Assembly: GCA_041228345.1 (NCBI GenBank)
Contig: CP166131.1
Location: forward strand, 496,001 to 560,000
Source: Alphaproteobacteria bacterium LSUCC0396
Lineage (GTDB): Bacteria > Pseudomonadota > Alphaproteobacteria > Puniceispirillales > Puniceispirillaceae
DNA length: 64,000 nt
Direction: 5' to 3'
Below, piece by piece: positions 45,101 through 62,322 of this stretch. The notes beneath the pieces are model-generated. The model saw only the letters and a list, made by a program, of their open reading frames with translations, had not been told where the DNA came from and did not search any database. The position numbers and the translations under genes are program-made. Within the stretch, counting starts at the first letter, position 1, and every line of letters begins with the position of its first letter.

Positions 45101-45586
45101 ATGCCTAGTTTTGACATTGTGAGTAAGATTGACACGACCGCGGTCGATAATGCGCTGGCTGGCGTGACCAAGGAAATGGACGTTCGCTACGATTTCAAAG
45201 GCAGTAAATGTGAAGTTTCGCGCAACGACGAGACCATCCTGATCAAGGCCGATGATGAATTGAAACGCCGTCAGGTTGAGGAATTGATCGTCACCCACCT
45301 CACCCGCAAGGGCGTTGATACCAAGGCGCTGGAATTTGAAAAGCCGGAACAGGCTGGCGGCAATAGCGTTCGCCAGACGGTGCTGGTGCGACAAGGCGTG
45401 CATCGCGAGGTTGCGCAAAAGATCGTCAAGGCGATCAAGGGCGCCAAGCTGAAGACGCAGGCCGCAATTCAGGGCGATGAAATTCGCGTGTCAGGCAAAA
45501 AGCGTGATGATTTGCAGGCCACTATGGCGATGATCAAGGCACTGGATATCGACCTGCCGCTGCAATATGAAAATTTCCGCGATTAG
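45101..45586 (+). CDS. yajQ: YajQ-family nucleotide-binding protein
   Basis: This 161-residue protein of two ferredoxin-like domains starts MPSFDIVSKIDTTAVDNAL and has MDVRYDFKGSKCEV, VHREVAQKIVKAIKGAKLKTQAAIQG and the C-terminal ALDIDLPLQYENFRD. Members bind RNA, nucleotides or cyclic di-GMP. It is the last core-chromosome gene before the first attachment-core repeat at 45,737. A strong GCCGGTT/AACCGGC hairpin follows at 45692-45708. Confidence 0.93.
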   Translation: MPSFDIVSKIDTTAVDNALAGVTKEMDVRYDFKGSKCEVSRNDETILIKADDELKRRQVEELIVTHLTRKGVDTKALEFEKPEQAGGNSVRQTVLVRQGVHREVAQKIVKAIKGAKLKTQAAIQGDEIRVSGKKRDDLQATMAMIKALDIDLPLQYENFRD

Positions 45587-45736: not shown

Positions 45737-45750
45737 TGGTGCGGCCGAGA
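45737..45750 (-). repeat. Attachment core, copy 1 (tRNA 3'-end-like)
   Basis: On the minus strand this reads TCTCGGCCGCACCA, like the acceptor end of a tRNA (probably leucine) including CCA. No tRNA body lies on its 5' side. It is the leftmost of four direct copies and marks the junction with the yajQ side of the chromosome. Confidence 0.7.
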
Positions 45751-45757
45751 AGGGTTA

Positions 45758-45833
45758 GCACCATTTTCCTTCTGAAACCCAAAGAAAATATAGCGATATG
45801 TCCATTTTATGCCCCTAGGTCGTACAAATGGTC
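45758..45833 (+). repeat. Island 1 inverted repeat, left arm
   Basis: This arm is the reverse complement of 48074-48150, with three substitutions and one gap. It begins with GCACC, a partial inverted copy of the core, and ends at the 3' end of the transporter gene. It contains a repeated GTCGTAC/GACCATT element that may be an integrase arm site. Confidence 0.8.
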
Positions 45834-46785
45834 ACGTCCTTAAACTTGTTTTGACCGCAATGGGCTTATTTTTAACTCCCTCACGGAAAAATATATAAAT
45901 CCCACTCAGCGTGATCAAAGTCATACCAACAAACGAAAAGTAGTCTGGGATTTCACCGAACAACCAATAACCATTAACTATCGCAAACACCAATAACACG
46001 TACTCAAACGGTGCAATTACAGGTGGATTTGAAATCCTGTAAGCGCTTGTAAGAAGCAGCATACCGCAGCTTCCGATGCATGCTATGGTCAAGATAGCTA
46101 AAATTGCATTCCAATCAGATATCACCCAAGGCCGCAGCAGATAGGCATAGCTTTTTGAAGTGCCAATATCTGGGCCTATCAGAGAGATTATGATTGAAGC
46201 GACAAGCCCTAGGATGCAACTACCCCAATACAAATGCATCATTTGCTGCCAAACGCTGTCTCTATCACGTGTATATTTAGCTATCATCATTGAGACCGAA
46301 TATGTGAACGCCGAGACAAGCGGCAGCAAAGCGATCATTTCAAATTTGTTTGGGCTAGGTTTCACTATCAGAATAACACCTGCAAAACCGGTCAAAACCG
46401 CCCCTAAACGATGAAAACCAATGTGATTTTTGAACAAAAACTTTGATATTATCGTCACGAATATTGGGCTAAAGAAGAATAGACTAGTAACCTCCGCTAG
46501 CCCCATTTCGCTGAGCGCAAAATAAAAGCAAAGAAACCCAGAGAAAAATAGTATGACCCGGCATAAAGCTAGCTTTGGATAGGATGAAGTAAATAAAATA
46601 GGACGACCCGTTAGCTTCAAAAACGCTATAAGAATTGACCCGCCGATCAGTCCTCTGATTGTCATGATTTGGGGTAGTGAGGCTACATCAGCCAAATGCC
46701 TAACTAGTATGTCCTGAACACTGAATAGTGACATTCCAACCAAAATAAAGAGAATGCCACGCACATCATCGTTCATCGAGATCAT
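45832..46785 (-). CDS. EamA/DMT-family transporter (island 1)
   Basis: This 317-residue inner-membrane protein has ten hydrophobic helices arranged as two EamA repeats (about residues 8-140 and 155-295). Family features include a long first helix GILFILVGMSLFSVQDILV and LGAVLTGFAGVILIVKP closing the first half. The second half ends SFVGMTLITLSGIYIFF. The substrate is unknown; relatives export amino acids, metabolites or drugs. Codon use is AT-rich compared with genes left of 45 kb. It is the only cargo of island 1, and its stop lies inside the left inverted arm. An alternative start is at 46776. Confidence 0.85.
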   Translation of the reverse strand: MISMNDDVRGILFILVGMSLFSVQDILVRHLADVASLPQIMTIRGLIGGSILIAFLKLTGRPILFTSSYPKLALCRVILFFSGFLCFYFALSEMGLAEVTSLFFFSPIFVTIISKFLFKNHIGFHRLGAVLTGFAGVILIVKPSPNKFEMIALLPLVSAFTYSVSMMIAKYTRDRDSVWQQMMHLYWGSCILGLVASIIISLIGPDIGTSKSYAYLLRPWVISDWNAILAILTIACIGSCGMLLLTSAYRISNPPVIAPFEYVLLVFAIVNGYWLFGEIPDYFSFVGMTLITLSGIYIFFREGVKNKPIAVKTSLRT

Positions 46786-46896
46786 CTCATCAGTTAATGA
46801 ACCTCAAGATTGATTTAAAAAGCACGCTTAATCAATAATTTTATCAATAAAAACAGTCGTATAATGAACATTTAGTATCCTTTTTACGTCAAAGAC

Positions 46897-48066
46897 TTAT
46901 TCAAATCTACTCAGTGGTGCTGCCGCAGATGCTGGAAGGACGATAGCTTGCATCCATCGACTAGTGATCTCGATTTCGTAACCTTCCCCATAACTTTGAC
47001 CCACGCCCGATGTCTTCCATCCATCCAGTTGATCAATGATGTCCGGCGGAAATTCGACAGCCCTGAGCCGATCGCGAAAACTGTGACGGAATGAATGGAC
47101 AACACAGCCATCAGGAACTAACGGCCGCAGCCATTTATTTAACCCATTACTAGCGTAGTCCGACTTATTGCCTTCCGGTGAGAAATAACGAGGAAACAAA
47201 AAGTCACTTTCGGAAGACGCTTGAGCGCGTTTTATGCCCCACAGAGTGGCTCCAACGGCTGGAACGCGCCTTTGACTATTCTCAGTCTTTAGAGGCCTCC
47301 AAGGCCGCTCTGTGAGCGTTATAAGCGGTACTTTGCAATCCAAAGATATATCTTGCTTAGTGAGACCGATCGCTTCAGCTAACCGCATACGGCTGTCAGA
47401 CAAAACAGCTATTAACCAACGCATCTCGTCATCTTTGCGTCGGCACTCTTCCTGAATAACTCGCAATTGCTCATACGGTATGGGCAAACGCCGAACAGGC
47501 TTGGCGCCGTTGCCATAATTCATGTTTGAGAAGGGGTTCACTGCATCAATAGCATTTTCAGTTGCGATGAAGTTCCATATGGCGCGAATACACTCAAAAT
47601 TCCGTTTTACTGTGGCTTGCGCGACCCCTCTGGCAACAAGTGTATCGCTAAACCGAAATGCATCAGCACGAGTATAGGCCTTGATAGACTTGTTTCCAGA
47701 AACAGCCACTACCTCTGCTACCACTCGGCTTACATAACCACAGAACCGTTTATCGTCAGACTTACCCCTCATTTTACAACAAGTATCGGCAGCCTCTGTC
47801 AGTAACAGCACCTGTAGAATCCCTGATTTCAGGAAATCTGATGCGGCCACACCTTTTGGCAAAGTAAAACGTAAATCCTGCCATTCTTTTTCAAGCGACA
47901 GGACTATATCACTGGATATGCGAACGGCTTGCGCTCGGTCTCGCGTTCTCAACGATTTTTGGATAGAATGTTTCCCATAATGCGGCACAAGATCCGTTGG
48001 AATGCGGTTTTGAAGGTAGTAAATACCGCATTTGCGTTACAAATAAGGAGCTGAAACTTTCGTCAT
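46897..48066 (-). pseudogene. Tyrosine integrase with in-frame stop at codon 10 (island 1)
   Basis: From the ATG at 48066 the frame reads MTKVSAPYL, then TAA at 48037-48039, then continues RKCGIYYLQNRIPTDL into the long frame that resumes with GTG at 47988 (363 residues). The downstream part keeps the phage-integrase core: DSRMRLAEAIGL (catalytic Arg), HSFRHSFRDRL (His-x-x-Arg) and VGQSYGEGYE (nucleophile Tyr). The N-terminal piece matches the start expected for this family, so the TAA most simply replaces a Gln codon. Starting at GTG 47988 would give a protein lacking about 26 N-terminal residues of the DNA-arm domain, which might be active or not. Its 5' end faces the core at 48145. Confidence 0.75.
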
Positions 48067-48073
48067 AAAGTAC

Positions 48074-48150
48074 GACCATTTGTACGACCCTAGGGGCACA
48101 AAATGGACATATCGCTATATTTTCTGCGGGTTTCAGAAGGAAAATGGTGC
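48074..48150 (-). repeat. Island 1 inverted repeat, right arm
   Basis: This arm is the reverse complement of 45758-45833. It lies between the integrase start and the core at 48145, overlapping the first bases of the core, and so probably contains the integrase promoter and binding sites. Confidence 0.8.
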
Positions 48151-48158
48151 GGCCAAGA
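48145..48158 (-). repeat. Attachment core, copy 2 (one mismatch)
   Basis: TGGTGCGGCCAAGA differs from the other copies at one base. It separates island 1 from island 2. The following GAAGAGGTTCGATGCC resembles a tRNA T-arm at first sight but does not fold into a tRNA. Confidence 0.65.
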
Positions 48159-48190
48159 AGAGGTTCGATGCCTTTCCCCTGCGCTAGCAA

Positions 48191-48523
48191 GTAACTGAAT
48201 CTAGCTATAACAATAGCTTAACAGATCATCACATATGGTCAACTATCAAAACTTTGCCTGCAACCTTGCCTGAACCCAGTTTCGAGGGCCAAGAGCCAAG
48301 CCTCTCCAACATAGCGACTGGAACCTCCGCTCTCGGATCTCGAACCGGGGGGTTACTGAGGATGTTTCTGAGTTAGGTTTGGATTTGATTAGAGGGGGTG
48401 GGGCCGCAGGGCGCAGGGGCTTGCGTCTCAAGGGGGCGGTTTACTTGATTGGTTGGCAGGCTATTTGTTGTATTAATGTCAGTGATTTCTTTCAATACGA
48501 CAATTTCACCAATTCTAAAGGTC
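48191..48523. other. Gene-free left flank of island 2
   Basis: It holds a trace of the inverted arm (48190-48203), then a G-rich stretch (48,345-48,440) without a gene I can support. Several short overlapping frames exist but none has family features or a clear start site. Confidence 0.5.
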
Positions 48524-49012
48524 TTACAATTTGTGATTTGCAATCGCAGAGTCATAACTTGACTGAAGGCTTTTTGTTATTTCTTTCAATTTTTCCTGAA
48601 ACGCCTTTTCAGAGTCAAATAACTCACAATCAACAGAGACAACCGCTATTTCATCTCTCATGACCGACCTTCGACCAGTTTTGCGGTCGACTAAAATATT
48701 GGTTTCTTGACCGTTGTTGCTCAATGTCCAACTTATCGACGACGTGTTAGTTTCATATGGGACACCGTGGCGTGTTGCCTTCATCTCAATGCTGTCATTT
48801 TTTCGTTGCCAAGTATGCGTTGAGACCCGTTTTTCATCAAACCAATGCGCAACCAAAGATGATAACGGCTCATCACTCACCGCCCATTTAGATAAAAGAT
48901 CCTCTGTTCTGCTGCAGATAAGGCCTTTTTCGGCGACTGCAGCATACGTCTGAATTGGTGCCATTGCGCTTACCATTAACAGGCACAGGGTAATAGAGAA
49001 CAGGACTTTCAT
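48524..49012 (-). CDS. Small secreted protein of unknown function
   Basis: This 162-residue product starts MKVLFSITLCLLMVSAMAP, a clear signal peptide with likely cleavage near TYAAVA. The mature part has two cysteines (about residues 33 and 129) that could form a disulfide, and a basic, Glu-rich C-terminal helix (EKAFQEKLKEITKSL). I do not recognise a family. It lies downstream of the histidine kinase on the same strand, 118 bp away, and may be part of that transcription unit. The start at 49012 is chosen so that the signal peptide is N-terminal; 49030 is the longer alternative. Confidence 0.65.
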   Translation of the reverse strand: MKVLFSITLCLLMVSAMAPIQTYAAVAEKGLICSRTEDLLSKWAVSDEPLSSLVAHWFDEKRVSTHTWQRKNDSIEMKATRHGVPYETNTSSISWTLSNNGQETNILVDRKTGRRSVMRDEIAVVSVDCELFDSEKAFQEKLKEITKSLQSSYDSAIANHKL

Positions 49013-49147
49013 AGTTACGTTTAACGGCACAGCTTTACAAAATTATAGTCACAGGATTTCAACCTCAAAGACCTGCAACCAAACGTAAAAGAAAACCGCG
49101 CCTTTTTCTCCTTTCTGAATGATTGACTAACAGCGAATGACCAGTTT

Positions 49148-50899
49148 TTAGGGCAAATGAATGGTCATAATTGCCCCACCAGAAATCGGCGTAAGGTCAA
49201 TTTTTGCGTTTATTTTTCTGGCGCGCATCATCATGTTATTGATACCAAACCCACCTTCGCGGTTGCCTTCAAAGCTTTTGCCGCCAGTATTTTCAATGGT
49301 AATGTTGAACTGGTTTTCGGCGGTTTTGCTGGCTGAAACAACCAAGGTTTTACAATCTGCTCGCACAATCGCGTTATGAAGTGCCTCTTGGAAGATGCGC
49401 GTAATTTCAAGAATAATGACCGAACTGCTTTTTGGATAACCCATCAAGGCAAGAATTGACCAATCAACCTGGATCTTCTCTTGTGGAATATGATCGACGA
49501 TTTGCTGTCGCAATGTGCCAAGTGCAGAAAATAAATCTTCGTCAGATGCCTCGCGCTGACCAAGAATGACTCGAATTTCATTAATGGCAAAGCGGCTAAG
49601 CTTTTGAATGTCTGCAAGCGCAGTTTTCTGCTTTTCCTGCGATAAAATATTTACGATCGATAGGTAATTCAAAACACCATCATGCAGTTCTGAATGGACT
49701 TTTAGCATGGCTTGCGATTGCGACCGTTCTTTTTCCAAAATCAAATTATTGGCGGCAAGTTGGCTTCGTGAGTGCGCAACCCCGCTGATATATAACGTGC
49801 CAACGCAAAGAATGACGGCAACCGTACCCGCATGCACCAAGATAATGCCGTCAGATATCAGCCCAAACCGATATGCAGCGTCATGTCCCAATGTCACCAG
49901 GATGGCCATCATCGCGGCAAAATAAATACCTGAATTATTATTCCCAAGCCAAAAAAAGCGATGAAAACTTTTTGCCAAAACATAAAGAACAACCAGCAGC
50001 AGGATAGGAAGCGTCAAATATAAATTGGCAAGTTTCATCAGGGTTACTGATTGCGATCCGAACAACAGTAATGCAACAAATACGACGATTGCCGCGCCAA
50101 GATGCGATTTATTGATTGGTGGTTTGGACGGGTCAAATATGTTGTTGCCAAATTGAATCAGCCCAAAAGCAGCTAATGACATGAATGTGACTAAATAGGG
50201 AAAAGCATCAATGAGGGATGGAAACGCATTTCCGAAAATCCCAATCCCACCAATGATAAGTGCCGTCATAATAAAGATCGGTGCAACAGCGTCAGCATAT
50301 ACCAAGCCAAACGCAACAAGGGTGATCAGAACGATAACGATGAAGATTTCAGTGCCCCACAATGCAGCACGCATATTTTCGTAATAAACCGTGTTACGCT
50401 GTGCAGAGACGGCGAGTGAGGTTTCCTGTCCAAAATATATTTTGGACATAGTGACCGAACCAATTCCCTTGTTTTCGATTGAAAAGCTTATGTCAGGCCG
50501 GTGCTTTCCGTCTGTTTTGGGTAATTGAATAAGAGCATCAGGAATGCGAAGACCGCTATGCCAATATTTCTGAGTGTCACTGTCAAAGAATTGAGTGCCA
50601 TTGGCGAAAAATTTCAGACGCCCTTCGTAAAAAGGAATGTAAATGGTATCCGTGGTGATGGGATCGTATCGATCAATGCTCAGATTTCCCTGAAGGCGAA
50701 CCGGGGTATCAGTGCCATGCACGACCTCAGAAACAGGCAGGCCAATGCTGTGCGCCAAAGTGGGCGCGGCGTTAAATTCTTCAATAACGAAGTCATATTC
50801 AGACACGTTCAAAAACGCCTTTGGCGCCCAAAAACACATCAGGGGGCCCAAAATTGTGAGCATAACAACTAGAATTTGGCTTTTGGATTTTCCCCACAC
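49148..50899 (-). CDS. Membrane sensor histidine kinase (HisKA_3 type)
   Basis: This 583-residue sensor has an N-terminal membrane helix and a periplasmic beta-rich domain of about 140 residues (about 35-175), resembling the extracellular domain of 7TMR-DISM kinases. A block of about seven to eight membrane helices spans about 180-370, and the cytoplasmic kinase follows. The phospho-acceptor motif is HSELHDGVLNYL near residue 405, as in NarX/DesK kinases. The ATPase domain has EALHNAIVRA and GGFGINNMMMRA. It starts at GTG, sharing one base with the TAG of the response regulator gene, so the pair is translationally coupled. The ligand is unknown. Confidence 0.88.
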   Translation of the reverse strand: MWGKSKSQILVVMLTILGPLMCFWAPKAFLNVSEYDFVIEEFNAAPTLAHSIGLPVSEVVHGTDTPVRLQGNLSIDRYDPITTDTIYIPFYEGRLKFFANGTQFFDSDTQKYWHSGLRIPDALIQLPKTDGKHRPDISFSIENKGIGSVTMSKIYFGQETSLAVSAQRNTVYYENMRAALWGTEIFIVIVLITLVAFGLVYADAVAPIFIMTALIIGGIGIFGNAFPSLIDAFPYLVTFMSLAAFGLIQFGNNIFDPSKPPINKSHLGAAIVVFVALLLFGSQSVTLMKLANLYLTLPILLLVVLYVLAKSFHRFFWLGNNNSGIYFAAMMAILVTLGHDAAYRFGLISDGIILVHAGTVAVILCVGTLYISGVAHSRSQLAANNLILEKERSQSQAMLKVHSELHDGVLNYLSIVNILSQEKQKTALADIQKLSRFAINEIRVILGQREASDEDLFSALGTLRQQIVDHIPQEKIQVDWSILALMGYPKSSSVIILEITRIFQEALHNAIVRADCKTLVVSASKTAENQFNITIENTGGKSFEGNREGGFGINNMMMRARKINAKIDLTPISGGAIMTIHLP

Positions 50900-51597
50900 T
50901 AGTTCAGTAATCCCAAGTTCCGTGCTTCAAAAACAGCCTCTGAGCGATTATTCGATTGCAGCTTTCGATAAATATTACGGATATGAACTGGCACTGTCGT
51001 TGGTGCAAGAGATAATGTTGTGGCCACTTCAGAATAGGAAAGCCCACGTGAAATGAGATTCAGAACCTCTAATTCGCGCGATGATAAAATTTTGGCTTTT
51101 TGTTTTGGCTCGGCTTGACCTTCGGGCGTGCGGCCCGCCTTATTCCGGAAAAGGCTAGCAAGCTGCGCGTCGTTACCATTATTCTGAAGGGTGGCGACAA
51201 TCTTATTTGCAATCGATGGCGAGATAGGTGAATCTCCAGCCATTGCTGTTTTGATAACTGTAATGATTTCAGACGATTCATCGCCCTTGTGAATATAGCC
51301 AACAGCGCCATCAGTAATCGCTTGCAGAATAACCGCACTATCCATTGATGATGAAATAACAATTGAGATCGCTGTATCGACTGCGGTTGAAAACCCCTTG
51401 ATGCTTTGGTTTCCTCGCCCATCTGGCAAATCAAGATCAGCAAGAAGAATATCAATATGATGGTTTTCCAAACAGGCTAAAAACTCGGCATTGTCTGAAC
51501 ATGTAAAAACCTGCTGAACGTGATCCCAATCTTTTAGGACACGCGCAAATCGCCGCTGTAAATATAAATCATCTTCTAAAACGGCAATATTGATCAT
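50899..51597 (-). CDS. LuxR/NarL-type response regulator
   Basis: This 232-residue regulator has a receiver domain (about residues 1-120) with the phospho-acceptor Asp54 in LLADLDLPDG and acidic residues LEDD at 7-10. The LuxR helix-turn-helix (about 165-230) is LSSRELEVLNLISRGLSYSE followed by TVPVHIRNIYRKLQSNNR. The start at 51597 follows a GAGAG/AAGA region. It is the first gene of the regulator-kinase pair and is divergent from the inverse-autotransporter lipoprotein gene across 174 bp, which makes that gene its most likely target. Confidence 0.9.
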   Translation of the reverse strand: MINIAVLEDDLYLQRRFARVLKDWDHVQQVFTCSDNAEFLACLENHHIDILLADLDLPDGRGNQSIKGFSTAVDTAISIVISSSMDSAVILQAITDGAVGYIHKGDESSEIITVIKTAMAGDSPISPSIANKIVATLQNNGNDAQLASLFRNKAGRTPEGQAEPKQKAKILSSRELEVLNLISRGLSYSEVATTLSLAPTTVPVHIRNIYRKLQSNNRSEAVFEARNLGLLN

Positions 51598-51771
51598 TCT
51601 TCGCTCTCTTGCATTCGTGCGCATTTATCTAGACGTGTTTTTTCAAGCTGTGCAAACAATCTAACTAGTTTTTGGTGCGAGCTACCATATCCGTAGTATT
51701 GAACGACTGGCTAATTTGCTGATGGTTAGTTTGGCAAAAAAATAGCTATTTACATGCTGGAGTCGTAAATT
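51598..51771. promoter_or_regulatory. Divergent regulatory region, response regulator versus surface lipoprotein
   Basis: This 174-bp AT-rich region must hold both promoters. It contains CTAC-N7-GTAG (near 51,682-51,696), a possible half-site pair. GGAG lies ten bases before the lipoprotein start. Confidence 0.4.
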
Positions 51772-52782
51772 ATGAAAAAGTCCCAACTTGCTGGCAGTGT
51801 TCTTTTGCTGTCACTGACTGGCTGTTCTTCAATCGGCAGCGGTTGGAACAACACGGTCGACTTTATTTTCGGGCCGGAGGATGGCGCGGGTCAACGTCAA
51901 GAAGCCGCTGCCAAGATGGCATCTGATGCGGCCACTAGTGCCAACCCAGAACAGGCTTTGGTCGATAATATCGTCAAGAAAAGCGTTGATAAAGCCGCTA
52001 TGTCAACTGCGGCTGCCATCGACAATTCTATGGCCTATTCCAAAACTGACATCAGCATAACCGGCATTAAAAGTAAAAAGACACGTTATGCGATTACCAA
52101 TGTCAAGGGCTTTGAACCAAGCGATAATAGCCATGCGCAAACATTCATGCAGTCATCGTTAACTAACGCTAATTCAAGAGCTGTTTTGAATTTGGGTTTG
52201 GGGCGCCGTTATCTTAGTGATGATGAGAGCGTCATTACTGGCGTCAATGCCTTTTTGGACTATGACCCAAAATATGGACATCAGCGGGTCAGCATTGGGG
52301 CAGAGTTAAAATCCTCGGCGTTTGAATTAACCGCAAATAACTATAAAGCCCTAACCAAATGGAAAAAAGGCAAAAGCGGCAATCAAGAACGAGCGCTGGA
52401 CGGACATGATATCGAGCTTGGCGCACAAATCCCCTACATGCCGGCTGCAAAGCTTTATGTGAAAAATTGGAAATGGAAGGGCGAAGACGGCGCTGGTGAC
52501 ACCAAGGGTAATACCTACAGTTTAGCTTTCTCCCAGTTGATAAATGGTGTTCAAGTTGAGCTTGGCCGCAGAGATTATGATGGACTTCAAAAAGATGAAA
52601 ATTTTGGCCAATTAACCTACACCATTCCAATGGGGAGTGCGCCTGCGCAGTCTAGCCAGCCATTATTCTCAAGTGAGATGTTTGAAAGCGCGTCGATGAA
52701 AGACAAAATGCTCGATAAGGTTCGGCGTAATAACGCAATTGTAATCCAAACTAAGTTCGTTGCTGCGGTTGGTGGAGTTTAA
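51772..52782 (+). CDS. Lipoprotein with inverse-autotransporter-type beta-barrel domain
   Basis: This 336-residue protein has a lipoprotein signal, with lipobox LTGC at residues 15-18, so it is lipid-anchored. An Ala-rich linker follows (about 40-105). Residues about 125-300 match the inverse autotransporter (intimin/invasin) N-terminal barrel pattern: LNLGLGRRYLSDDESVITG, VNAFLDYDPKYGHQRVSIG, LTANNYKALTKWK and the repeated amphipathic strands after it. Unlike intimins there is no Ig-like passenger after the barrel. The next gene encodes a separate secreted protein that could be its partner. Expression is probably controlled by the divergent two-component system. Confidence 0.78.
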   Translation: MKKSQLAGSVLLLSLTGCSSIGSGWNNTVDFIFGPEDGAGQRQEAAAKMASDAATSANPEQALVDNIVKKSVDKAAMSTAAAIDNSMAYSKTDISITGIKSKKTRYAITNVKGFEPSDNSHAQTFMQSSLTNANSRAVLNLGLGRRYLSDDESVITGVNAFLDYDPKYGHQRVSIGAELKSSAFELTANNYKALTKWKKGKSGNQERALDGHDIELGAQIPYMPAAKLYVKNWKWKGEDGAGDTKGNTYSLAFSQLINGVQVELGRRDYDGLQKDENFGQLTYTIPMGSAPAQSSQPLFSSEMFESASMKDKMLDKVRRNNAIVIQTKFVAAVGGV

Positions 52783-52786
52783 TACT

Positions 52787-53644
52787 ATGTCACATTATTT
52801 GAAAATTTTGTTTTCAGCATTGTTTGTTTTTTCAACGTTATCATTATCAGCCAATGCTCAGACAATAGTAAACGAGAACGCCATGGCTTTCTCCGCCTGT
52901 CCCGCAACCGGTGACATGGTGGCAGAAGATGGAGAGTGCCGCGTCACGCCATCAACGTTTTCGACAAAGATATATGAAATTGGGTTATGCACCGCACACC
53001 CATATGGTGCGGCAAAAACAAGCGCAACATTTGACGCTTCAACTTGTGTTGTGATTTATACCGATGCAGCCCCTGCTGCCGTCGACCTTGCGGCTGCAAT
53101 CGGAACCAATACGTCTCTTCCCGGAACTGCATCAGCGCCACCTGAGGGAACTTATGGGTTTCCGTATATTAAGTTAGGAACAGATTTTACAGTAGCTGGT
53201 TCATTTACAAACACACCGACTGGTGGAGTAGCAACCACCTACTACAGCCGTAGCAATGGGACCGTTGGCACTACTGCGCCAGCAGTTGCGAAAACAGACT
53301 CACTGAAAAACTTTGGTGATGACGATTGCTCATCGGGTTATGTGGGCGCTGCAGTTGTTGGTGGAACTATGGACGGCTTCATCACCAATACTGCTTTTAC
53401 AAGAAGTACTGATACTGACAAGAGCGGCGACCCGGTCATCTGCAACAAAAGTGATAGATTAGTCGCGGTTATGAATCTAGCGGCGCCCTTCACCGTTACG
53501 AGTCAAACATATGCGGTAAACTTTAACTTTATTCTTACTAACTATGGAGCTCAGTTTGTTGATGGAAACAACACTGCCGGCGCCCCTGAAGAATTTGCAA
53601 GCGCACCCTTTGCTGGTTACTTTACTGTGCTAAATGCTGACTAA
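52787..53644 (+). CDS. Secreted cysteine-containing protein, possible partner of the barrel lipoprotein
   Basis: This 285-residue protein has a signal peptide (MSHYLKILFSALFVFSTLSL, cleavage near ANAQT). The mature part is rich in Thr, Ala, Gly and Asn with low charge. It has several cysteines (ACPATG, GECRV, LCTAH, STCVV, DDCSSG, VICNK), likely disulfide-bonded, and reads like an all-beta extracellular protein. I do not recognise a family. It begins 4 bp after the lipoprotein stop and is followed by a hairpin, so the two form a bicistronic unit. The start at 52787 follows GGTGGAG. Confidence 0.7.
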   Translation: MSHYLKILFSALFVFSTLSLSANAQTIVNENAMAFSACPATGDMVAEDGECRVTPSTFSTKIYEIGLCTAHPYGAAKTSATFDASTCVVIYTDAAPAAVDLAAAIGTNTSLPGTASAPPEGTYGFPYIKLGTDFTVAGSFTNTPTGGVATTYYSRSNGTVGTTAPAVAKTDSLKNFGDDDCSSGYVGAAVVGGTMDGFITNTAFTRSTDTDKSGDPVICNKSDRLVAVMNLAAPFTVTSQTYAVNFNFILTNYGAQFVDGNNTAGAPEEFASAPFAGYFTVLNAD

Positions 53645-53673
53645 ACAAAGACTCTAAAATTTAACCTAACAAA

Positions 53674-53714
53674 CTCTGATACTGCCGCCAAACAAAATGG
53701 CAGTGGTATCAGAG
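53674..53714 (+). terminator. Hairpin after the surface-protein operon
   Basis: CTCTGATACTGCC pairs with GGCA...GTATCAGAG with a three-base bulge and a 12-nt loop. It lies 30 bp after the stop. The T-rich tail is weak on the plus strand. Confidence 0.5.
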
Positions 53715-53752
53715 AAAATTTGGCTGATGGCAGCCGAGAAATTATGGACATT

Positions 53753-54196
53753 TTATGCATCACCAGTCTCAATCATTGTGAGGCTCTTATTTTCGAGACA
53801 ATCCTTCAAGTACCCAATGTTCCGGGAAGAGCTTTGGAAAAACAAGCTAGCCTTCCCTGTTCCCTTTAGGCTTTGATAGCAGCGAAGCGCATCATCCAAA
53901 CTTAGTGAAGTTTTCTTATCATTCGGTCGCAAATCAGCATTTATTAGAGATAACCCGAGTTCACGCGAATGAATCTGCTCAAGCCTCAAGCTATCCCAAT
54001 AACGTTCTAGCCTATCAGACAGTGTCATCGATAAGCTGCGAGCCTTATCTGCTGATTTTGTCTTGAGTGATACTTCAACACGGCGCTTATTGAAGCGTGC
54101 CTGCAGGTCCGTAGGAACTGCGCGAGAGAAGTAATAAATGTCATTTCTTTGATAAAAGTATACCGGAGACCTTGTCCACACCATAACGTGTACCAC
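53753..54196 (-). pseudogene. N-terminal remnant of a tyrosine integrase (island 2)
   Basis: The 147-residue frame matches only the N-terminal arm-binding part of the integrases nearby: VYFYQRNDIYYFSRAVPTDL, VEVSLKTKSADKARSLS and DDALRCYQSLKGTGK correspond to the same segments at 58165-59304. The frame stops before the core-binding and catalytic domains, so no Arg, His-x-x-Arg or Tyr residues remain. Its 5' end faces attachment core 3, as in the intact copies. It is probably a deletion remnant; its truncated end abuts the surface-protein operon. Confidence 0.8.
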
Positions 54197-54267
54197 CCTG
54201 CTCTAAAACATTAACTGTTTAGATACAGTTACTAGGCCACCGATCCGCGGTTCTTGAAACTAGGAAA

Positions 54268-54281
54268 TGGTGCGGCCGAGA
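54268..54281 (-). repeat. Attachment core, copy 3
   Basis: TGGTGCGGCCGAGA is identical to copies 1 and 4. It is the outer end of the 388-bp inverted repeat and the boundary between islands 2 and 3. Confidence 0.7.
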
Positions 54282-54655
54282 AAATCTATTATGCCTTACG
54301 TATGCACCATCACTGACCTGAACATCAGCAATACTCACATATTATGTGTCACTGACTCACTGTCAACAGGCACGTAATCTTTCACAGTTTCTTTCACAGT
54401 GAATAGAAATCTTCGGGTAATGGAATAAGCCTACATATCCTTATCGTTATCAGTACAGGGTAAGTGAGATATGTAGGTGATAGATACATATCCTTGTTAA
54501 GGACACCTGACTGTTAGCTTACAGTGCCTTAACAATCCCAATGTCAATAACACCTAACCACCTATGGGGCGGCGGGCGCCACCCCCCAGCCGCACGTATA
54601 TATAAATGGACAATTACACAGATCAGTCTTTAAAAGTGTTAACCACTATCAGTTG
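54268..54655 (+). repeat. 388-bp inverted repeat, left arm
   Basis: This is the reverse complement of 57436-57823, with only about three differences, all near 54,590. It starts with the attachment core and contains the perfect palindrome CACATATTATGTG (54336-54348) plus several shorter inverted elements. No gene lies in it. With the next 140 bp it forms a gene-free stretch of nearly 600 bp. Confidence 0.92.
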
Positions 54656-54680
54656 TCATTCTTGTCATTTGTGTCATTTT
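54654..54680 (+). repeat. Iteron-like 9-bp repeats, cluster 1
   Basis: TGTCATT occurs three times at an exact 9-bp spacing (54654, 54663, 54672), at the inner edge of the 388-bp repeat. The same triplets recur inverted at 57228-57252 and direct at 57306-57330. They could be arm-type binding sites or replication iterons. Confidence 0.75.
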
Positions 54681-54793
54681 TAATGAAGGCGTGCTTTGGA
54701 TTGTGGCTAGATTAATCAGTCTAGGTTTGTCAGGTAATATCTGAGTAGTTAATTGGAAGCAAAATGATTATTGTATTTTTTAGGGCCTGACGA

Positions 54794-55246
54794 TTGGTAC
54801 GTGCTGGTCTTCTTATTCACCTGATCATGACTACTATTGCCGGAATTTATCCTGCCAGTGCGGCAGACTCTGCAAGGCGTGATATTTCCTGTGGCAATTA
54901 CCGCTACATCATAGAGAAATCTTTATTTGGTGTTAATGTCAACATCATGAATATTAATGATAATATTATTGCCTCAACCGAACGTCCTTATTGTCAATCA
55001 AACCCCGATGCTCAGATGGTGGCTGAACTTTCAGTAGATGGTGATGATATATGGTGTGTTGAAAAGTTCTTTATCGTGATGGATCGAAAGCCCATTGCAA
55101 AAACTTCGCGTTTGCTAAGCCTCACTCTGGACCGCGTCTTTGAATATGACTATTTGTGGCAAGCTGGTGACTGGGTAAAAGCTGACACACGGACCATTAC
55201 TTGTGCCAGTCACAAAGAGCCTAAAATGAAAAAAATCCCCGATTAG
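54794..55246 (+). CDS. Small secreted protein of unknown function (island 3)
   Basis: This 150-residue product starts at TTG (54794), or at ATG 54827. The N-terminus (LLIHLIMTTIAGIYPASAADS) is a signal peptide with an AxA-type cleavage site. The mature part contains four cysteines (DISCGNYRY, PYCQSN, IWCVEK, ITCASH), likely two disulfides. I do not recognise a family. The TTG start keeps an arginine before the hydrophobic stretch, which suits a signal peptide. It precedes two transporter genes on the same strand and lies inside the potentially invertible module. Confidence 0.6.
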   Translation: MVRAGLLIHLIMTTIAGIYPASAADSARRDISCGNYRYIIEKSLFGVNVNIMNINDNIIASTERPYCQSNPDAQMVAELSVDGDDIWCVEKFFIVMDRKPIAKTSRLLSLTLDRVFEYDYLWQAGDWVKADTRTITCASHKEPKMKKIPD

Positions 55247-55365
55247 GACTGGTAATTTCTCGCCTCGCTCCTTTGTTGTCCTATCCTATTGGTTCTAACC
55301 GCGCAGGTAAGTGAACTCAACCATTAGCCTCGCAAAAGGCGCTTTGATTAGTTTGTGAGGAAATT

Positions 55366-56229
55366 ATGAGTGCAAATCTGAAAAGTATAATCCTAATGGT
55401 TATTGGGATGGGTTGTTTAACCTTAGGTGATTTGCTGATCAAAATCGCCAGCCAAACATTACCGCTCGGACAGGTAATGATTATATTTGGTGCCGGCTCA
55501 ATAACAGTATTTTTGGGGGTTATGCGTATTGAGGGTGAGTCTGTTCGGCTATCGCCATTCACTAATCTTGCAGTAGTGTTGAGAAATATTGGTGACCTTA
55601 TTGCCATAAATGGTATGTGCTTGGCATTAGTATTTGTTCCCATATCCACTATTGGGGCAGTGATTCAAACTGTACCATTGATGGTTACCGCAGCCGCAGC
55701 TTTGTTTCTTGGCGAGCGAGTTGGCCCACGGAGATGGTTGGCCATTCTTATTGGTTTTTTAGGAACTCTGCTTATCATCCAGCCGGGTGCTGCTACCTTT
55801 GATATCGCGACAACCCTTGTATTGATTGCTGCAGCAGGTATGACGTTACGAGATATAACGACCAAGCTGGTTCATGAAAATTTTTCAACTCTGCTTCTGT
55901 CCTCGTATACGTCTGTACTATTTATAATAAGTGGCGGCGTTTTACTCATAATCTCAGGTGGAGCCAGCATACCTGATATAAAGATGATAGCCATACTTGT
56001 AGCAATGATCGCCTGCGGTTCTTTGGGTTTTTTCTTTACAACTAAGGCTGTCAGGTTGGGAGATGTGTCTGTTGTAATCCCTTTTCGTTACACTCGACTT
56101 CTGTTTTCTGTGGCGGCTGGCATTTTAATTCTTGGCGAGCAGGTAAATTTGATCATGCTAATTGGTAGCGCTTTAACGATTTCATCTGGCCTTTACATTT
56201 GGCGCAGAGAAATTGTTATTCAAAATTAA
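55366..56229 (+). CDS. EamA/DMT-family transporter (island 3, first)
   Basis: This 287-residue membrane protein has ten helices in two EamA repeats. The first (about 5-140) includes VVLRNIGDLIAINGMCLALV and LGERVGPRRWLAILIGFLG. The second (about 150-283) ends LGEQVNLIMLIGSALTISSG. GAGGAAATT precedes the start. It is followed after about 100 bp by a second EamA gene that is clearly different in sequence, so this is not a tandem duplication. The substrate is unknown. Confidence 0.87.
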   Translation: MSANLKSIILMVIGMGCLTLGDLLIKIASQTLPLGQVMIIFGAGSITVFLGVMRIEGESVRLSPFTNLAVVLRNIGDLIAINGMCLALVFVPISTIGAVIQTVPLMVTAAAALFLGERVGPRRWLAILIGFLGTLLIIQPGAATFDIATTLVLIAAAGMTLRDITTKLVHENFSTLLLSSYTSVLFIISGGVLLIISGGASIPDIKMIAILVAMIACGSLGFFFTTKAVRLGDVSVVIPFRYTRLLFSVAAGILILGEQVNLIMLIGSALTISSGLYIWRREIVIQN

Positions 56230-56331
56230 AATAGGCGTGGCAAGAAATTGCCTCGCTTTCTCATACAGCTTTCGATTAGTGTTTTTTTCAAAATGAAATA
56301 ATCCTATTTTCCTCATAAATTCAGAGCAAAA

Positions 56332-57210
56332 ATGACAAAGCCTATTGCTACAATATTAGTCCTTTTTGGGGCTTCAATGATGAGTTTTGTTGGGGTCCTG
56401 ATGAGGCTGCTCGATGAGGCTACGGGGTTCCAAATTCTTTTCTATCGGTCAATTAGCCTCACATTAATGGTTTTGCTGGTCGTCTGTATTCGGCGCAGAA
56501 CCACTCCTTCATTTTTCATCAAATCAATTGATAAGCATGACCTGCTGATGGGAGGCTGGCTTTCAGTAGCCTTCACCACGTACATTTTCTCTATGCTCTG
56601 GAGTTCAGTTGCATCAACCCTATTAATCATCACTATTGCACCGTTTCTTGCTGCAGTAATTGCTTGGAAGTGGATTGGTGAAACTCCCCACCCTGTTACA
56701 TGGCCAACCATGATCGTTGCAACTTTTGGCGTGGGCTTAATGGTTTATGATGGGGCTAATCTTGGTTATTCACTGGGAAATATCAGTGCATTTGTCTCTG
56801 CATTATGCTTTGCCATAATGCTAGTTGTAGCAAGGCGCAGTCAAAAAACGGATGTTTTAGGCGGAACGTTCATGGCTGGCGTATTTAGCGTTTTACTTGG
56901 AGCCATAACCGCAGTTGTTTTTGATGGCAGCCTTAAAGTCAGCCAATCAGATATTTCAATTATTTTATTTATGGGTGCCTTCACTATTGGTCTTGGAATC
57001 GCTTTGGTAACAACTGGAACAGGATATATCCCTGCTGCAGAGGTAAGTCTACTTGTGTTGATTGAAAGTGTTTTGGGTCCAATTTGGCCGTGGGTGTTTT
57101 TAGGTGAACCAATCACTATTTATGAAATTATCGGCGGAGTAATTACACTTTTAGCCGTAGCTGCCTTCACTATTTATAGTCGTAAATCACGAGTGCCTTT
57201 ATCTGATTGA
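56332..57210 (+). CDS. EamA/DMT-family transporter (island 3, second)
   Basis: This 292-residue membrane protein has two EamA repeats. FQILFYRSISLTLMVLLVV lies in the first half and LLVLIESVLGPIWPWVFLGE, the classic EamA signature around helices eight and nine, in the second. The C-terminus is a short basic tail. It is co-directional with the other transporter gene, from which it has diverged. The pair may form a heterodimer or act independently. It lies just inside the right arm of the inverted repeats. Confidence 0.88.
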   Translation: MTKPIATILVLFGASMMSFVGVLMRLLDEATGFQILFYRSISLTLMVLLVVCIRRRTTPSFFIKSIDKHDLLMGGWLSVAFTTYIFSMLWSSVASTLLIITIAPFLAAVIAWKWIGETPHPVTWPTMIVATFGVGLMVYDGANLGYSLGNISAFVSALCFAIMLVVARRSQKTDVLGGTFMAGVFSVLLGAITAVVFDGSLKVSQSDISIILFMGAFTIGLGIALVTTGTGYIPAAEVSLLVLIESVLGPIWPWVFLGEPITIYEIIGGVITLLAVAAFTIYSRKSRVPLSD

Positions 57211-57227
57211 GTTAACCCCCGCCTCCC

Positions 57228-57252
57228 AATGACACAAATGACAAGAATGACA
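57228..57252 (-). repeat. Iteron-like 9-bp repeats, cluster 2 (inverted)
   Basis: AATGACA occurs three times at 9-bp spacing. This cluster is the inverted counterpart of 54654-54680. It is separated from the right 388-bp arm by about 180 bp of extra sequence that begins and ends with CAACTGAT. Confidence 0.7.
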
Positions 57253-57305
57253 ACTGATCTATAAACCTCTGCCAATTCTTCTCATGGACGACTTTCCATT
57301 TCCTT

Positions 57306-57330
57306 TGTCATTTCTGTCATTCCTGTCACA
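57306..57330 (+). repeat. Iteron-like 9-bp repeats, cluster 3
   Basis: TGTCATT, TGTCATT and TGTCACA occur at 9-bp spacing inside the extra segment, facing cluster 2 and able to pair with it as a long hairpin. Confidence 0.65.
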
Positions 57331-57435
57331 TACCCATTTAAAAAGATCACCAATAATGCATCACGTATTAGGCACCGGCTTTGCCTAAACACGTTTATGG
57401 GCATTTTAGTGACTCATTGAATTGCACTTAAATGG

Positions 57436-57823
57436 CAACTGATAGTGGTTAACACTTTTAAAGACTGATCTGTGTAATTGTCCATTTATATATATGTGTG
57501 GCAGGGGGGTGGCGCCCGCCGCCCCATAGGTGGTTAGGTGTTATTGACATTGGGATTGTTAAGGCACTGTAAGCTAACAGTCAGGTGTCCTTAACAAGGA
57601 TATGTATCTATCACCTACATATCTCACTTACCCTGTACTGATAACGATAAGGATATGTAGGCTTATTCCATTACCCGAAGATTTCTATTCACTGTGAAAG
57701 AAACTGTGAAAGATTACGTGCCTGTTGACAGTGAGTCAGTGACACATAATATGTGAGTATTGCTGATGTTCAGGTCAGTGATGGTGCATACGTAAGGCAT
57801 AATAGATTTTCTCGGCCGCACCA
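57436..57823 (-). repeat. 388-bp inverted repeat, right arm
   Basis: This is the reverse complement of 54268-54655 at the same length. It ends with the inverted attachment core at 57810-57823, which it shares with the 78-bp repeat of the neighbouring integrase module. Confidence 0.92.
57810..57823 (+). repeat. Attachment core, inverted copy
   Basis: TCTCGGCCGCACCA on the plus strand is the only copy of the core in this orientation. It is the joint between the two modules of island 3. Confidence 0.75.
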
Positions 57824-57887
57824 TCTTCTCATCTAAACACCTGATATGTCGGCACATTATGTGCAACAGATTAGGCGTGTGAAATAG
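57810..57887 (+). repeat. 78-bp inverted repeat, left arm
   Basis: This is the reverse complement of 59306-59383 except at one base. It contains the perfect palindrome GCACATTATGTGC (57852-57864) in this arm, a likely protein-binding site. Confidence 0.92.
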
Positions 57888-57939
57888 ACACTCACGAAAT
57901 CTGATGCTCCATCGTACTTACAGTAAATTGAGTATCAAC

Positions 57940-58158
57940 ATGGAATTTTTACTTCTTTGGGTTCTTGGTGGAAATGTATTGGACAGCGGTCTTCGCTATG
58001 AAGATGCTGGCAGCTGCTACGCTGCTGCTCAGAACAGCGGTAAAGACCTCCAAGAAATAGGCCTGTCTCCACCCAAGTTCACTTGTGTTCCAGTTGCCGA
58101 AGGCAAAGAATTGAAACTGCTGGTTCCTGAACAGCAAGGTTCACGCTTTCCATTCTGA
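57940..58158 (+). CDS. Small protein of unknown function (island 3)
   Basis: This short product of 72 residues starts MEFLLLWVLGGNVLDSGLRY with a hydrophobic N-terminus. It then has GSCYAAAQN and FTCVPVAEG, two cysteines about 35 residues apart. A longer start at 57904 adds 12 residues. It converges on the integrase gene with a 6-bp gap. It resembles small exported or membrane-tethered proteins often seen in marine bacterial accessory DNA, but I cannot name a family. The position inside the integrase module suggests it travels with it. Confidence 0.5.
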   Translation: MEFLLLWVLGGNVLDSGLRYEDAGSCYAAAQNSGKDLQEIGLSPPKFTCVPVAEGKELKLLVPEQQGSRFPF

Positions 58159-58164
58159 TACAGA

Positions 58165-59304
58165 TTAGAGTCTCCTCATCCACTTCTCTAAGACCTCTAA
58201 TGGATACCCATTCCCATATCCATGACCTACGCCAGAGGTCTTCCAGCCTCCTATTGCATCAACAATATCCGATGGACATTCCACGGCTCTTAAACGGTCA
58301 CGAAGACTATGTCTAAAGCTATGAATGACACAGTTGTCTGGCACGTATTGATGCAGCCATTTATTAAGACCACCACTAGCTGAGTTGGCTTTACAGCTTG
58401 CTGCATCGCAGTATCTAGGAAAAGCAAAGATACTATCATTGTTGGCCTCTAGAAGCCTCTTAGACGCCCACAGAGTAGCCCCAACAAGCGGAATACATCT
58501 GTGACTGCCTTTGGTCTTTAAACTCCTCCACGGATGAGGTTTAAGGTCTATGTGAGGTATACAGTCATCTAGTTTTATGTCTTCTTTCAGTAACCCAGCT
58601 GCTTCTCCTAATCTCATGCCAGTGTCACTGATAAGAGCAATGAGCCACCGCATCTCATCGTCTATGTCTTTGCACAGAGATTGCACCCTCTTGATGTCTT
58701 GAATGGATATTGGCTGTCTTGATTGAGCATCATCATCATCAGGAAAGTAAGTCTTGGCAAAGGCATTGGAACAATCCAGCCCCTCCTCTGCTATCGCTAG
58801 GTTCACTATGGCTCTTATTGATGAAAAGACACGCTTGACTGTCTTAATACCCATACCTTTATCAATACACCAATCACGAAACTGAGCAGCTTCATTGGAG
58901 GAGTAAGAGGATATGGGTCTATCGCCCAAGAGTTTGGTCACATAGCTAGTGTTACGATTGGCGGTTCTTATGAACACCTTGTCTTTACCCACGCCTTTCA
59001 GCCGCAGGTATAACTCACAGGCTTCAGACAGAAGTAAACCATCATTAACAGCAGAATCACTTGATTTGACCACTTGAATAGCAGGTATATCCATATTTTG
59101 CAGTCGCAAACCAAGCCAATAATCCTCAAGGCGTTGGTTTATTGATTTGCTTGCACGAACAGCTACAGAGGCTGATTTGGTTTTAAGGCTGAAGCAGAGC
59201 CTACTCACATTATAGTAGGCAATTAGGTCATAAGGTATGTGACGAACATAATAGTAAACACCATCACGATTCATCACGTGTTCGGGAGCAAATTTCTTTC
59301 TCAT
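58165..59304 (-). CDS. Tyrosine-family site-specific integrase (island 3)
   Basis: This 379-residue recombinase appears intact. The N-terminal arm-binding region (MRKKFAPEHVMNRDGVYYYVRHIPYDL) matches the family start. A core-binding SAM-like domain lies at about 105-185. The catalytic domain has DTGMRLGEAAGL (Arg), HSFRHSLRDRL (His-x-x-Arg) and VGHGYGNGY (Tyr). Its start is just inside the 78-bp arm that ends in core 4, so its promoter lies in the repeat. It is the best candidate for the enzyme that moves or inverts the modules here. Confidence 0.93.
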   Translation of the reverse strand: MRKKFAPEHVMNRDGVYYYVRHIPYDLIAYYNVSRLCFSLKTKSASVAVRASKSINQRLEDYWLGLRLQNMDIPAIQVVKSSDSAVNDGLLLSEACELYLRLKGVGKDKVFIRTANRNTSYVTKLLGDRPISSYSSNEAAQFRDWCIDKGMGIKTVKRVFSSIRAIVNLAIAEEGLDCSNAFAKTYFPDDDDAQSRQPISIQDIKRVQSLCKDIDDEMRWLIALISDTGMRLGEAAGLLKEDIKLDDCIPHIDLKPHPWRSLKTKGSHRCIPLVGATLWASKRLLEANNDSIFAFPRYCDAASCKANSASGGLNKWLHQYVPDNCVIHSFRHSLRDRLRAVECPSDIVDAIGGWKTSGVGHGYGNGYPLEVLEKWMRRL

Positions 59305-59305
59305 T

Positions 59306-59383
59306 CTATTTCACACGCCTAATCTGTTGCACATAATGTGCAGACATATCAGGTGTTTAGATGAGAAGATGGTGCGGCCGAGA
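59306..59383 (-). repeat. 78-bp inverted repeat, right arm
   Basis: This is the partner of 57810-57887. It lies between the integrase start and the right end of core 4 and must contain the integrase promoter. Confidence 0.92.
59370..59383 (-). repeat. Attachment core, copy 4
   Basis: TGGTGCGGCCGAGA, identical to copies 1 and 3. A partial second copy, TGGTGCGG, follows at 59390-59397. No tRNA body is found to the right within the window. Confidence 0.7.
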
Positions 59384-59521
59384 CGCAATGTGGTGCGGAA
59401 TCATTAGTGTCTAACTAATTGAATCATATAGACAGTTGTAAATCTTGGCAAGAGGCTTGTGATACCGATTGTGACACCTTTTTAAGGCTAGGGATTTTAG
59501 GAATCCTACTTCTAAAACCAA

Positions 59522-59592
59522 CCCCCATACCCATCGAAATCTCACGGCTTCAAAAAAGGGGGCTAAAAGTCAGAGGTGTTGTTCTTGTTGTT
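59522..59592 (+). repeat. Diverged direct repeat, left copy
   Basis: This copy begins CCCCCATACCCATCGAAATC and contains TTCAAAAAAGGGGGCTAAAA and TTGTTCTTGTTGTT. It matches 62697-62760 with about a dozen differences. It lies in the 360-bp gap between the integrase and the PhoX-like gene, which otherwise holds core 4 and the terminator. Confidence 0.75.
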
Positions 59593-59620
59593 AAAATCAC
59601 ACAGCAGTTGATGCAAGGGC

Positions 59621-59650
59621 AAAAAAGAGAGGCGCATTATCACGCCTCTC
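59621..59650 (-). terminator. Strong Rho-independent terminator of the secreted-protein gene
   Basis: On the minus strand GAGAGGCG pairs perfectly with CGCCTCTC around an 8-nt loop and is followed by six T. It lies 19 bp past the stop codon. Confidence 0.9.
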
Positions 59651-59668
59651 CGAGTTGTTATTGTAATG

Positions 59669-61726: not shown

Positions 61727-62322
61727 TTAGGAAGCCTCTCAAAATGAAGCGATTGGGAGGCTCTTCTTTCCAATTTTTTTATTTCACCTATGTTACCGAA
61801 ATATTAAATTTTTGCTATTGAGGCATCCCCTCTGCGTCGCAGGACAAGGAAGACAAAACATATAAGCTAATCAGGCTTTAAGTTCTATTATAAACAGTAT
61901 GATATTGCGCTGATATTAGAGGCAGAAATACTGATTAAGAAAATTTTTTATGGAACACCCACTATGTCTTGCAGCTGAATTTAAAGTTATTTTCCAAAGG
62001 TTGCCGTATCTGAACCACCCACTGCCAAGTCATTCAAGTCCAAAGGCTGATTGATGCAGAGTTTAATGTCAGCCAAATTGAAAAAAATTAACCGAGAATT
62101 AAAATTATTATAAGACGCGCTTCAGCCAATTATGACACGATTCGTGCAACTTTGGAGGGGTTGCTGAATATTTGAGACAAGCCTCACCGTTCTAGTAAAC
62201 TTTTAGAATCAGTTGCTTAATGAAGTGGCTCGCTCTTGTAATAAATCTGCAAAGTTCGGTTAATCTACTCCAATGCGCAGAAACCGTTAACAAATAGTTT
62301 TGTTACAAAAATGGAGCTGAAG
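61727..62322. other. Gene-free AT-rich region
   Basis: Nearly 600 bp lie between the start of the secreted-protein gene and the next small ORF. It should hold the promoter of the former. I looked for a Pho-box-like direct repeat and found none I could defend. At 62286-62306, GTTAACAAA and TTTTGTTAC form an inverted repeat just upstream of the small ORF, a possible operator. Confidence 0.5.

Follow-up and report, generated by a model that had tools for sequence, protein, structure and literature searches.

Integrative elements at tRNA genes of Alphaproteobacteria bacterium LSUCC0396 and related genomes carry an inverted inner copy of their predicted attachment site

The genome of Alphaproteobacteria bacterium LSUCC0396 (Puniceispirillales; Puniceispirillaceae) is a single contig of 2,592,803 bases, and a stretch of 64,000 nucleotides of it (C1:496001-560000), referred to here as the window, was analyzed. 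Its right-hand part holds what are, with virtual certainty, four integrative elements (A to D) targeted to a tRNA-Leu(GAG) gene and stacked beside yajQ, with copies of a 14-nt tRNA-end sequence, the core, at their borders. Within element C (59383 to 54268) a complete copy of the attachment site predicted for the circular form (attP) lies inverted between the integrase gene (int) and the cargo, and the same layout was found at related integrases in other genomes. We hold with high confidence that this inner inverted attP is a real and recurrent feature, and it probably works as an attachment (att) site.

Organization of element C

Read from 59383 down to 54268, element C has the order core-X-int-X'-core'-Y'-cargo-Y-core, where X and Y are the two att arms and primes mark the inner copies, and it comprises two halves which each lie between inverted att arms. 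One inverted repeat pairs 54262-54660 with 57431-57829 (399 nt, 98% identity; 394-399 nt and 98-99% across comparisons) and a second pairs 57810-57888 with 59305-59383 (79 nt, 99%). Both meet at an inverted core, a fifth exact copy of TGGTGCGGCCGAGA located on the minus strand at 57810. The original prediction, made from the letters of the window, had counted the four direct cores correctly and had overlooked this inverted fifth copy, together with the long inverted repeats of elements C and A. On the minus strand, from high to low coordinate, 57431-57888 reads X-core-Y with both arms complete and, judged by its sequence, is the attP expected from joining both ends of C in a circle. As integrated, C has attR (core-X) at int, attL (Y-core) at its far end, and a whole inverted attP between integrase and cargo.

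The outer X arm (59305-59369, minus strand) extends from the core to the int start codon. The integrase is intact (379 aa; 58165-59304, minus strand), matches Pfam DUF6538 (3e-14) and Phage_integrase (1.6e-9) as well as PHROG integrase (2.3e-31), and has a fold like those of Tn1549 Int and lambda Int. Gene 2 of the integrase half is an 84-aa open reading frame (ORF) on the plus strand (57904-58158), opposite to int and with its start codon 15 nt from X', for which no family match was obtained in Pfam or PHROG scans. The inner site is made up of X' (57824-57888, plus strand), the exact core' at the centre of the complete attP (57810-57823, minus strand) and Y' (57431-57809, plus strand), the last of which holds arm-site repeats and a predicted promoter, P_Y' (57725-57752, plus strand), pointing through core' and X' and antisense to int. 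The cargo genes encode two EamA/DMT transporters, both on the plus strand, at 55366-56229 (Pfam EamA, 1.7e-17) and 56332-57210 (1.4e-21). The outer Y arm (54282-54660, minus strand) contains two arm-site repeats (ACTGTGAAAG) and the predicted promoter P_Y (54366-54339, minus strand).

Recurrence among related integrases

A census of 141 related integrases was analyzed. Within the order, 79 of 136 genomes contained a relative; among 385 genomes sampled from the class, 10 did, and five of these ten lie outside the order. Named relatives are mostly from SAR116 or Puniceispirillum, and the hosts reach Roseobacter-group and gammaproteobacterial genomes. Named carriers identified by a genome-collection scan are BAL199, Ruegeria conchae TW15, Maritalea mobilis, Nitratireductor aquimarinus, Tranquillimonas rosea and Tritonibacter multivorans, together with the gammaproteobacteria HIMB30 and Glaciecola sp. 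HTCC2999. An X inverted repeat, in which sequence before int recurs inverted behind it, was found at 94 of the 141 integrases, and of the 76 that had 3 kb or more of sequence downstream, 52 had one; its median length was 84.5 nt and 55 repeats were 100% identical. Where a tRNA was recognized, its exact 12-nt end was found inverted in 68 of 74 cases, the targets being tRNA-Leu, Arg, Thr, Phe, Gly, Asn and one selenocysteine tRNA (SeC). With respect to controls, no X inverted repeat was present at E. coli intS, intB or intD, and random positions drawn from the same loci gave an X-type repeat in 4 of 300 cases.

At no fewer than ten other loci the element was complete, having both repeats as well as a closing core, and the complete layout occurs elsewhere at tRNA-Thr, -Leu, -Arg, -Phe and -Gly, including in genomes G015, G001, G056 and G438, in BAL199 (L196) and in HIMB30 (L255). 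In 34 of 94 cases the draft contig ends within 600 nt past the inner core, as an assembler would be expected to do on reaching Y for the second time. The smallest elements, of 3.1 kb, hold the integrase and one short ORF. In an integrase tree of 104 rows the repeat was present in 89, and the negatives were mostly scattered tips together with one clade of four; the simplest reading of this distribution is that the layout is ancient and has been lost repeatedly.

Two further loci were noted. A decayed integrase at tRNA-Leu(TAA) in genome G000 (C1:2526380-2527431), 85-91% identical to the integrase of C, has intact X repeats (100 nt, 97%). At L193:6135-7600 an X-int-X' half abuts, via about 10 nt, the core of a different tRNA and a second integrase, a junction of the form seen in element A.

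Anatomy of the attachment site

Comparison of outer with inner X arms gave 78 differences in 5265 positions (98.5% identity), and across elements the X consensus shows little conservation for the most part. Inner cores agree with the tRNA at which the element now resides, even though close relatives from a single clade occupy different tRNAs. Only the Gly element of G000 (C1:422681-438525) departs from this: its inner site is diverged and has a tRNA-Arg-like core, which possibly records a change of target tRNA, and its outer cores form a 22-bp direct repeat that extends 8 nt beyond the tRNA. In the tRNA-Phe element of G015 (L066) the outer X arm does not resemble the inner X' of its own element and is instead identical to the X arm found beyond the closing core, a pattern suggestive of recombination among stacked elements. 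Near this Phe island there is also a 931-bp perfect inverted repeat (reverse-strand 14171-15101 / 17203-18133), probably two copies of an insertion sequence.

In 66 of 81 elements the Y arm contains, at a distance of about 115 nt from the core, an element-specific 10-nt word repeated directly with a 12-nt period. The word of Y also occurs in X beside the int start in 53 of these 66, compared with 59 of 327 for the X of other elements, and these words look like Int arm sites. The N-terminal domain of the integrase is predicted to be ordered strand-strand-helix-strand-helix, with Tn1549 Int and lambda Int as the closest solved folds, and because both this predicted fold and the nearest structures fit, DUF6538 is probably the arm-binding domain. 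X contains a conserved motif resembling a site for integration host factor (IHF), YAANNNNTTGATW, and no conserved promoter pair was found in X across elements.

In Y, the motif TTGAC was found in 46 of 54 elements, mostly 77-87 nt from the core, and is followed after 16 poorly conserved nt by TAnnnT (T in 49, A in 51 and T in 47 of 55). This pair, TTGACA-N16-TAnnnT, reads as a sigma70-type promoter motif and would, as the putative promoter P_Y, point through the core to X and int. An IHF site in Y was considered and rejected, since its consensus fits a minority only and a promoter fits the conserved pair better. In the window the motif sites are those given above for P_Y' and for P_Y, the latter pointing into the integrase remnant of element B, and a similar site at the end of D (59451-59423, minus strand) points into int of C. 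The number of motif matches in this stretch is not above chance, and the motif is supported by its conservation across elements.

Orientation of the two halves

The 5' end of int faced the tRNA, 48-109 nt away, in 105 cases; two integrases were clearly reversed (L253, L258) and two were doubtful (L058, L203). The integrase at L258, in a gammaproteobacterial metagenome-assembled genome, is 96.2% identical to that of HIMB30 and has the same tRNA-Phe flank, but the integrase half lies in the opposite orientation. Cargo homologues were also found in both orientations relative to int. Comparison thus favors inversion of the integrase half by Int, which we judge to be moderately probable. Where a gap lies behind int (56 elements), its longest ORF ran opposite to int in 36, and 22 of these 36 started within 40 nt of X'. 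In 38 of 94 elements fewer than 60 nt separate int from X', so that the integrase half is int alone.

Proposed role of the inner site and alternatives

Our preferred model is that the inner attP forms part of an invertible integrase switch, an interpretation to which we give, overall, a little less than an even chance. That switching is the main role of the inner attP is put forward with somewhat more reserve. More speculative still is the proposal that orientation alone, without repressor or excisionase and with the promoter held in the Y arm, sets a silent integrated or an active excising state. In the circular form, two inverted attPs would delimit an integrase half and a cargo half, and int would be constantly under the control of P_Y. 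If int faced the tRNA upon integration, it would be cut off from P_Y, and in the integrated element the inner P_Y' would read antisense to int or drive gene 2 at the other end of the half. Recombination by Int of attR with the inner attP would flip the integrase half, and recombination of attL with the inner attP would flip the cargo half. Once the integrase half was flipped, the inner P_Y' would drive int again and excision would be permitted. That the inner promoter may serve either gene 2 or int, depending on orientation, is proposed because the second gene is often opposite and starts at X'. Reversed integrants would be unstable, which could produce the orientation bias. A switch of this kind would account for the complete inner attP, the identity of the arms, the promoter in Y and the bias in orientation.

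Several observations weigh against this model. The X repeat is absent in about a third of testable integrases, some of which keep the Y repeat. P_Y is a motif and not a mapped transcription start, and the same promoter motif is found in L170 and L171, elements with no inner copy, so that the promoter alone leaves the inner attP unexplained. Both the reversed integrase halves and their flanks are known from draft metagenome assemblies, where an inverted repeat of 90-108 nt could be mis-joined, and the cargo flips are based on single genes or modest identity. The bias of 105 to 2 is compatible with a switch that is seldom used and also with other models.

One alternative, which we consider unlikely, is that the inner attP is unused in the life cycle and is either an old inverted duplication kept alike by gene conversion or simply a promoter for gene 2. 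The opposite ORF in 36 of 56 elements, with its frequent start at X', would agree with this, as would the Gly element of G000, which keeps a diverged inner site with a tRNA-Arg-like core. However, the 38 of 94 elements without gene 2 still keep the inner site, and its retention extends over the whole integrase tree, with the arm sites complete and the inner cores matching the current tRNA. This pattern of retention suggests selection on a functional inner site.

Similarly improbable, in our estimation, is integration of a folded single strand, in which Y-core-X would pair with X'-core'-Y' to form a double-stranded attP from one strand, Int would exchange one strand with the tRNA site, and replication would resolve the product as in integron cassettes. 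Such a route would give exactly the integrated layout and could fix the orientation of int. Repeats that span the entire attP, the near identity of the X arms and the strong bias in integrase orientation would be consistent with it, as would the lack of any recurring relaxase, replication initiator or Xis among the elements with scanned cargo, which had the integrase as their sole shared gene. Against it, mismatches between the arms display no strand bias (G-T wobble, 21 versus 26 for the two strands), both int orientations occur at one locus, and a fixed orientation would also require strand-specific entry. Finally, amplification in the manner of the yeast 2-micron plasmid, where Int would flip a half during replication of the circle and the resulting double rolling-circle replication would raise copy number before transfer, has the same geometry of inverted repeats whose recombination sites split a circle into two unique halves (PMC3147054) but is the most doubtful of these readings, with no shared autonomous replication gene, elements down to 3.1 kb, and int lying at least 96% one way as against the equimolar isomers of 2-micron.

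The stack at tRNA-Leu(GAG)

The original prediction had described a stack of islands on four direct copies of a 14-bp core, one with a mismatch, with an integrase or remnant to the left of copies 2, 3 and 4 whose 5' end faces the core, and with a minus-strand order of core-integrase-cargo ending at yajQ. This description held throughout. On the plus strand, exact cores lie at 45737-45750 (closing core of A), 54268-54281 (closing core of C and core of B) and 59370-59383 (core of C and closing core of D), and a core with one mismatch lies between A and B at 48145-48158. The integrase sequences to the left of copies 2, 3 and 4 are at 46897-47988, 53753-54196 and 58165-59304, and yajQ (45101-45586, plus strand; Pfam DUF520, 4.6e-58) is the chromosomal neighbour at the left end of the stack. 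The reverse complement of the core had also been taken for the end of a tRNA, probably tRNA-Leu, whose body lay beyond position 64,000. ARAGORN located this gene, tRNA-Leu(GAG), at C1:562167-562253 on the minus strand (window-equivalent 66167-66253), 2.2 kb past the window, and its final 14 nt are the core. The fourth integrase sought to the right was likewise present (455 aa, 79 nt from the tRNA 3' end).

Allowing up to 2 mismatches, the core had 5 matches compared with a shuffle mean of 0.41, and none of 100 shuffles reached 5; chance repeats were ruled out by these shuffles and by the controls of the integrase census. The only other exact copy in the genome is at C1:562167, the end of tRNA-Leu(GAG), and at up to 1 mismatch there are, besides the stack and the tRNA, two one-mismatch sites, around which ARAGORN found no tRNA within 14-16 kb. 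A dispersed repeat unrelated to integrases, which had been named as a possible refutation, was ruled out by this genome-wide distribution.

As found in tRNA islands, a tyrosine integrase lies beside the tRNA and the tRNA 3' end is directly repeated at the far end. The elements would have inserted successively at or beside the tRNA 3' end, giving the order outward from the tRNA of D (window-equivalent 66180 to 59370), C, B (54281 to 48145) and A (48158 to 45737). All four integrases have the DUF6538 N-terminus and three have the catalytic domain, that of B being truncated. In the close relatives G021 and G026, yajQ is followed by the core and then by different element content, and the locus is therefore a variable island. 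No empty site at yajQ was found in ten relatives, of which the two near ones carry other elements and the others have no tRNA nearby.

Elements A, B and D

Beside its closing core, element A has an inner X' arm and a truncated inverted core, GCACCA (45758-45833, plus strand), which belong to a 77-nt inverted repeat (95%) with 48074-48150. Because X and X' are kept, the inner core is truncated and the cargo module Y is absent, A looks like a derivative whose cargo half has been lost. Its integrase (DUF6538 and Phage_integrase; 46897-47988, minus strand, or to about 48073 if a TAA is read through) is a probable pseudogene with one in-frame TAA, at codon 10 of the longer frame, and its cargo is an EamA/DMT family transporter (45832-46785, minus strand; Pfam EamA, 2.9e-22).

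The integrase remnant of element B (53753-54196, minus strand) consists of the N-terminal DUF6538 part only (1.4e-18), and no catalytic domain was found in it by Pfam. The cargo of B (48524-53644; Pfam Response_reg, GerE and IAT_beta) comprises a membrane protein which has no Pfam match and is possibly a histidine kinase, a LuxR-type response regulator, an inverse autotransporter beta-domain protein, and unknowns. IAT_beta proteins are cargo both in B (51772-52779) and in another element of the integrase family.

Element D occupies 59384-64000 of the window and continues to the tRNA. It contains a 685-aa ORF, a 445-aa ORF, the 455-aa integrase by the tRNA and the closing core, and has an ordinary attP with no inner copy and no inverted repeat. 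The 445-aa protein (L009:3164-4501; window-equivalent 63164-64501) belongs to PHROG 4756, a function-unknown family, and has no Pfam match; by eye only, a likeness to polymerase motifs A and C is seen in its DIDINASFLRIF and IHDS stretches. The 685-aa protein (59669-61726), also with no Pfam match, recalls by eye the PhoX-type alkaline phosphatases.

Gene content

A scan of 44 cargo ORFs from 11 elements identified the integrase as the sole shared gene. Among the best 25 of the 39 Pfam families there were no relaxase or conjugation genes, by which integrative and conjugative or mobilizable elements would be recognized, and no shared replication gene; no Xis was identified. A match to Pycsar cyclase models was obtained for one cargo ORF and weak matches to defence models for others, so that some elements may carry anti-phage genes. 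A phage or virion origin was also considered and rejected: viral contigs gave no relative when scanned with the C integrase, and a second scan, with the alignment, gave only one above 40% identity, at 45%.

Discussion

The elements resemble ordinary tRNA islands (E. coli CPS-53/argW-intS, Islander-type) in having an integrase by the tRNA, a directly repeated tRNA 3' end, tandem stacking, and a lambda/Tn1549-like integrase with arm sites. The tested E. coli islands differ in that they have no inverted repeat around int, and we know of no ordinary tRNA island with an inner inverted attP. With integron cassettes the alternative mechanism would be shared, a folded single strand supplying the double-stranded site. 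The attC site is a short hairpin recognized by IntI, whereas the arms here are 0.2-0.5 kb long and far apart, and the integrase is closest in fold to Tn1549 and lambda Int and has an N-terminal domain of arm-binding type; attC hairpins were not searched for.

The yeast 2-micron plasmid (FLP/FRT) similarly has a tyrosine recombinase gene and two unique halves between site-bearing inverted repeats (PMC3147054), and here too two inverted repeats, each with a recombination site, divide two unique halves. The plasmid is, however, autonomous with equimolar isomers, whereas these elements are chromosomal and tRNA-integrated, share no replication gene and have int facing the tRNA in 105 cases as against two clearly reversed. 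Strand-biased circularizing integrative elements (SEs), GInts and Tn554 are comparable as tyrosine-recombinase elements of marine bacteria with terminal inverted repeats and no transfer genes. SEs have four conserved genes including two integrases, terminal repeats of 13-19 bp and 6-bp footprints (PMC10214605). The elements described here differ in having one integrase each with no second shared gene (intA, intB, CDS2 and CDS4 would be expected of SEs and GInts), a tRNA target and an inverted copy of the whole attP inside. Tycheposons of Prochlorococcus and other marine microbes are alike in tRNA target, cargo, tyrosine recombinase and marine hosts, as described in PMC10872708, where inverted repeats are unmentioned.

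Searches of the open literature, subscription papers being outside the scope, yielded no account of an integrative element with an inverted internal attP and no paper naming DUF6538. The family is widespread and apparently undescribed; what is new in it is the internal inverted attP, the integrases and the tRNA targeting being ordinary.

Islands targeted to tRNA genes are one of the chief ways in which marine bacteria acquire genes, and how excision is controlled in minimal islands with no recognizable repressor or Xis is mostly unknown. An inverted inner attP that is conserved among diverged integrases and in several orders offers a concrete candidate for such a mechanism, one that can be tested. 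The layout permits such elements to be detected automatically and would explain why draft assemblies frequently break at them. Cultured carriers exist in HIMB30, Ruegeria conchae TW15 and Tritonibacter multivorans, and direct testing is therefore possible.

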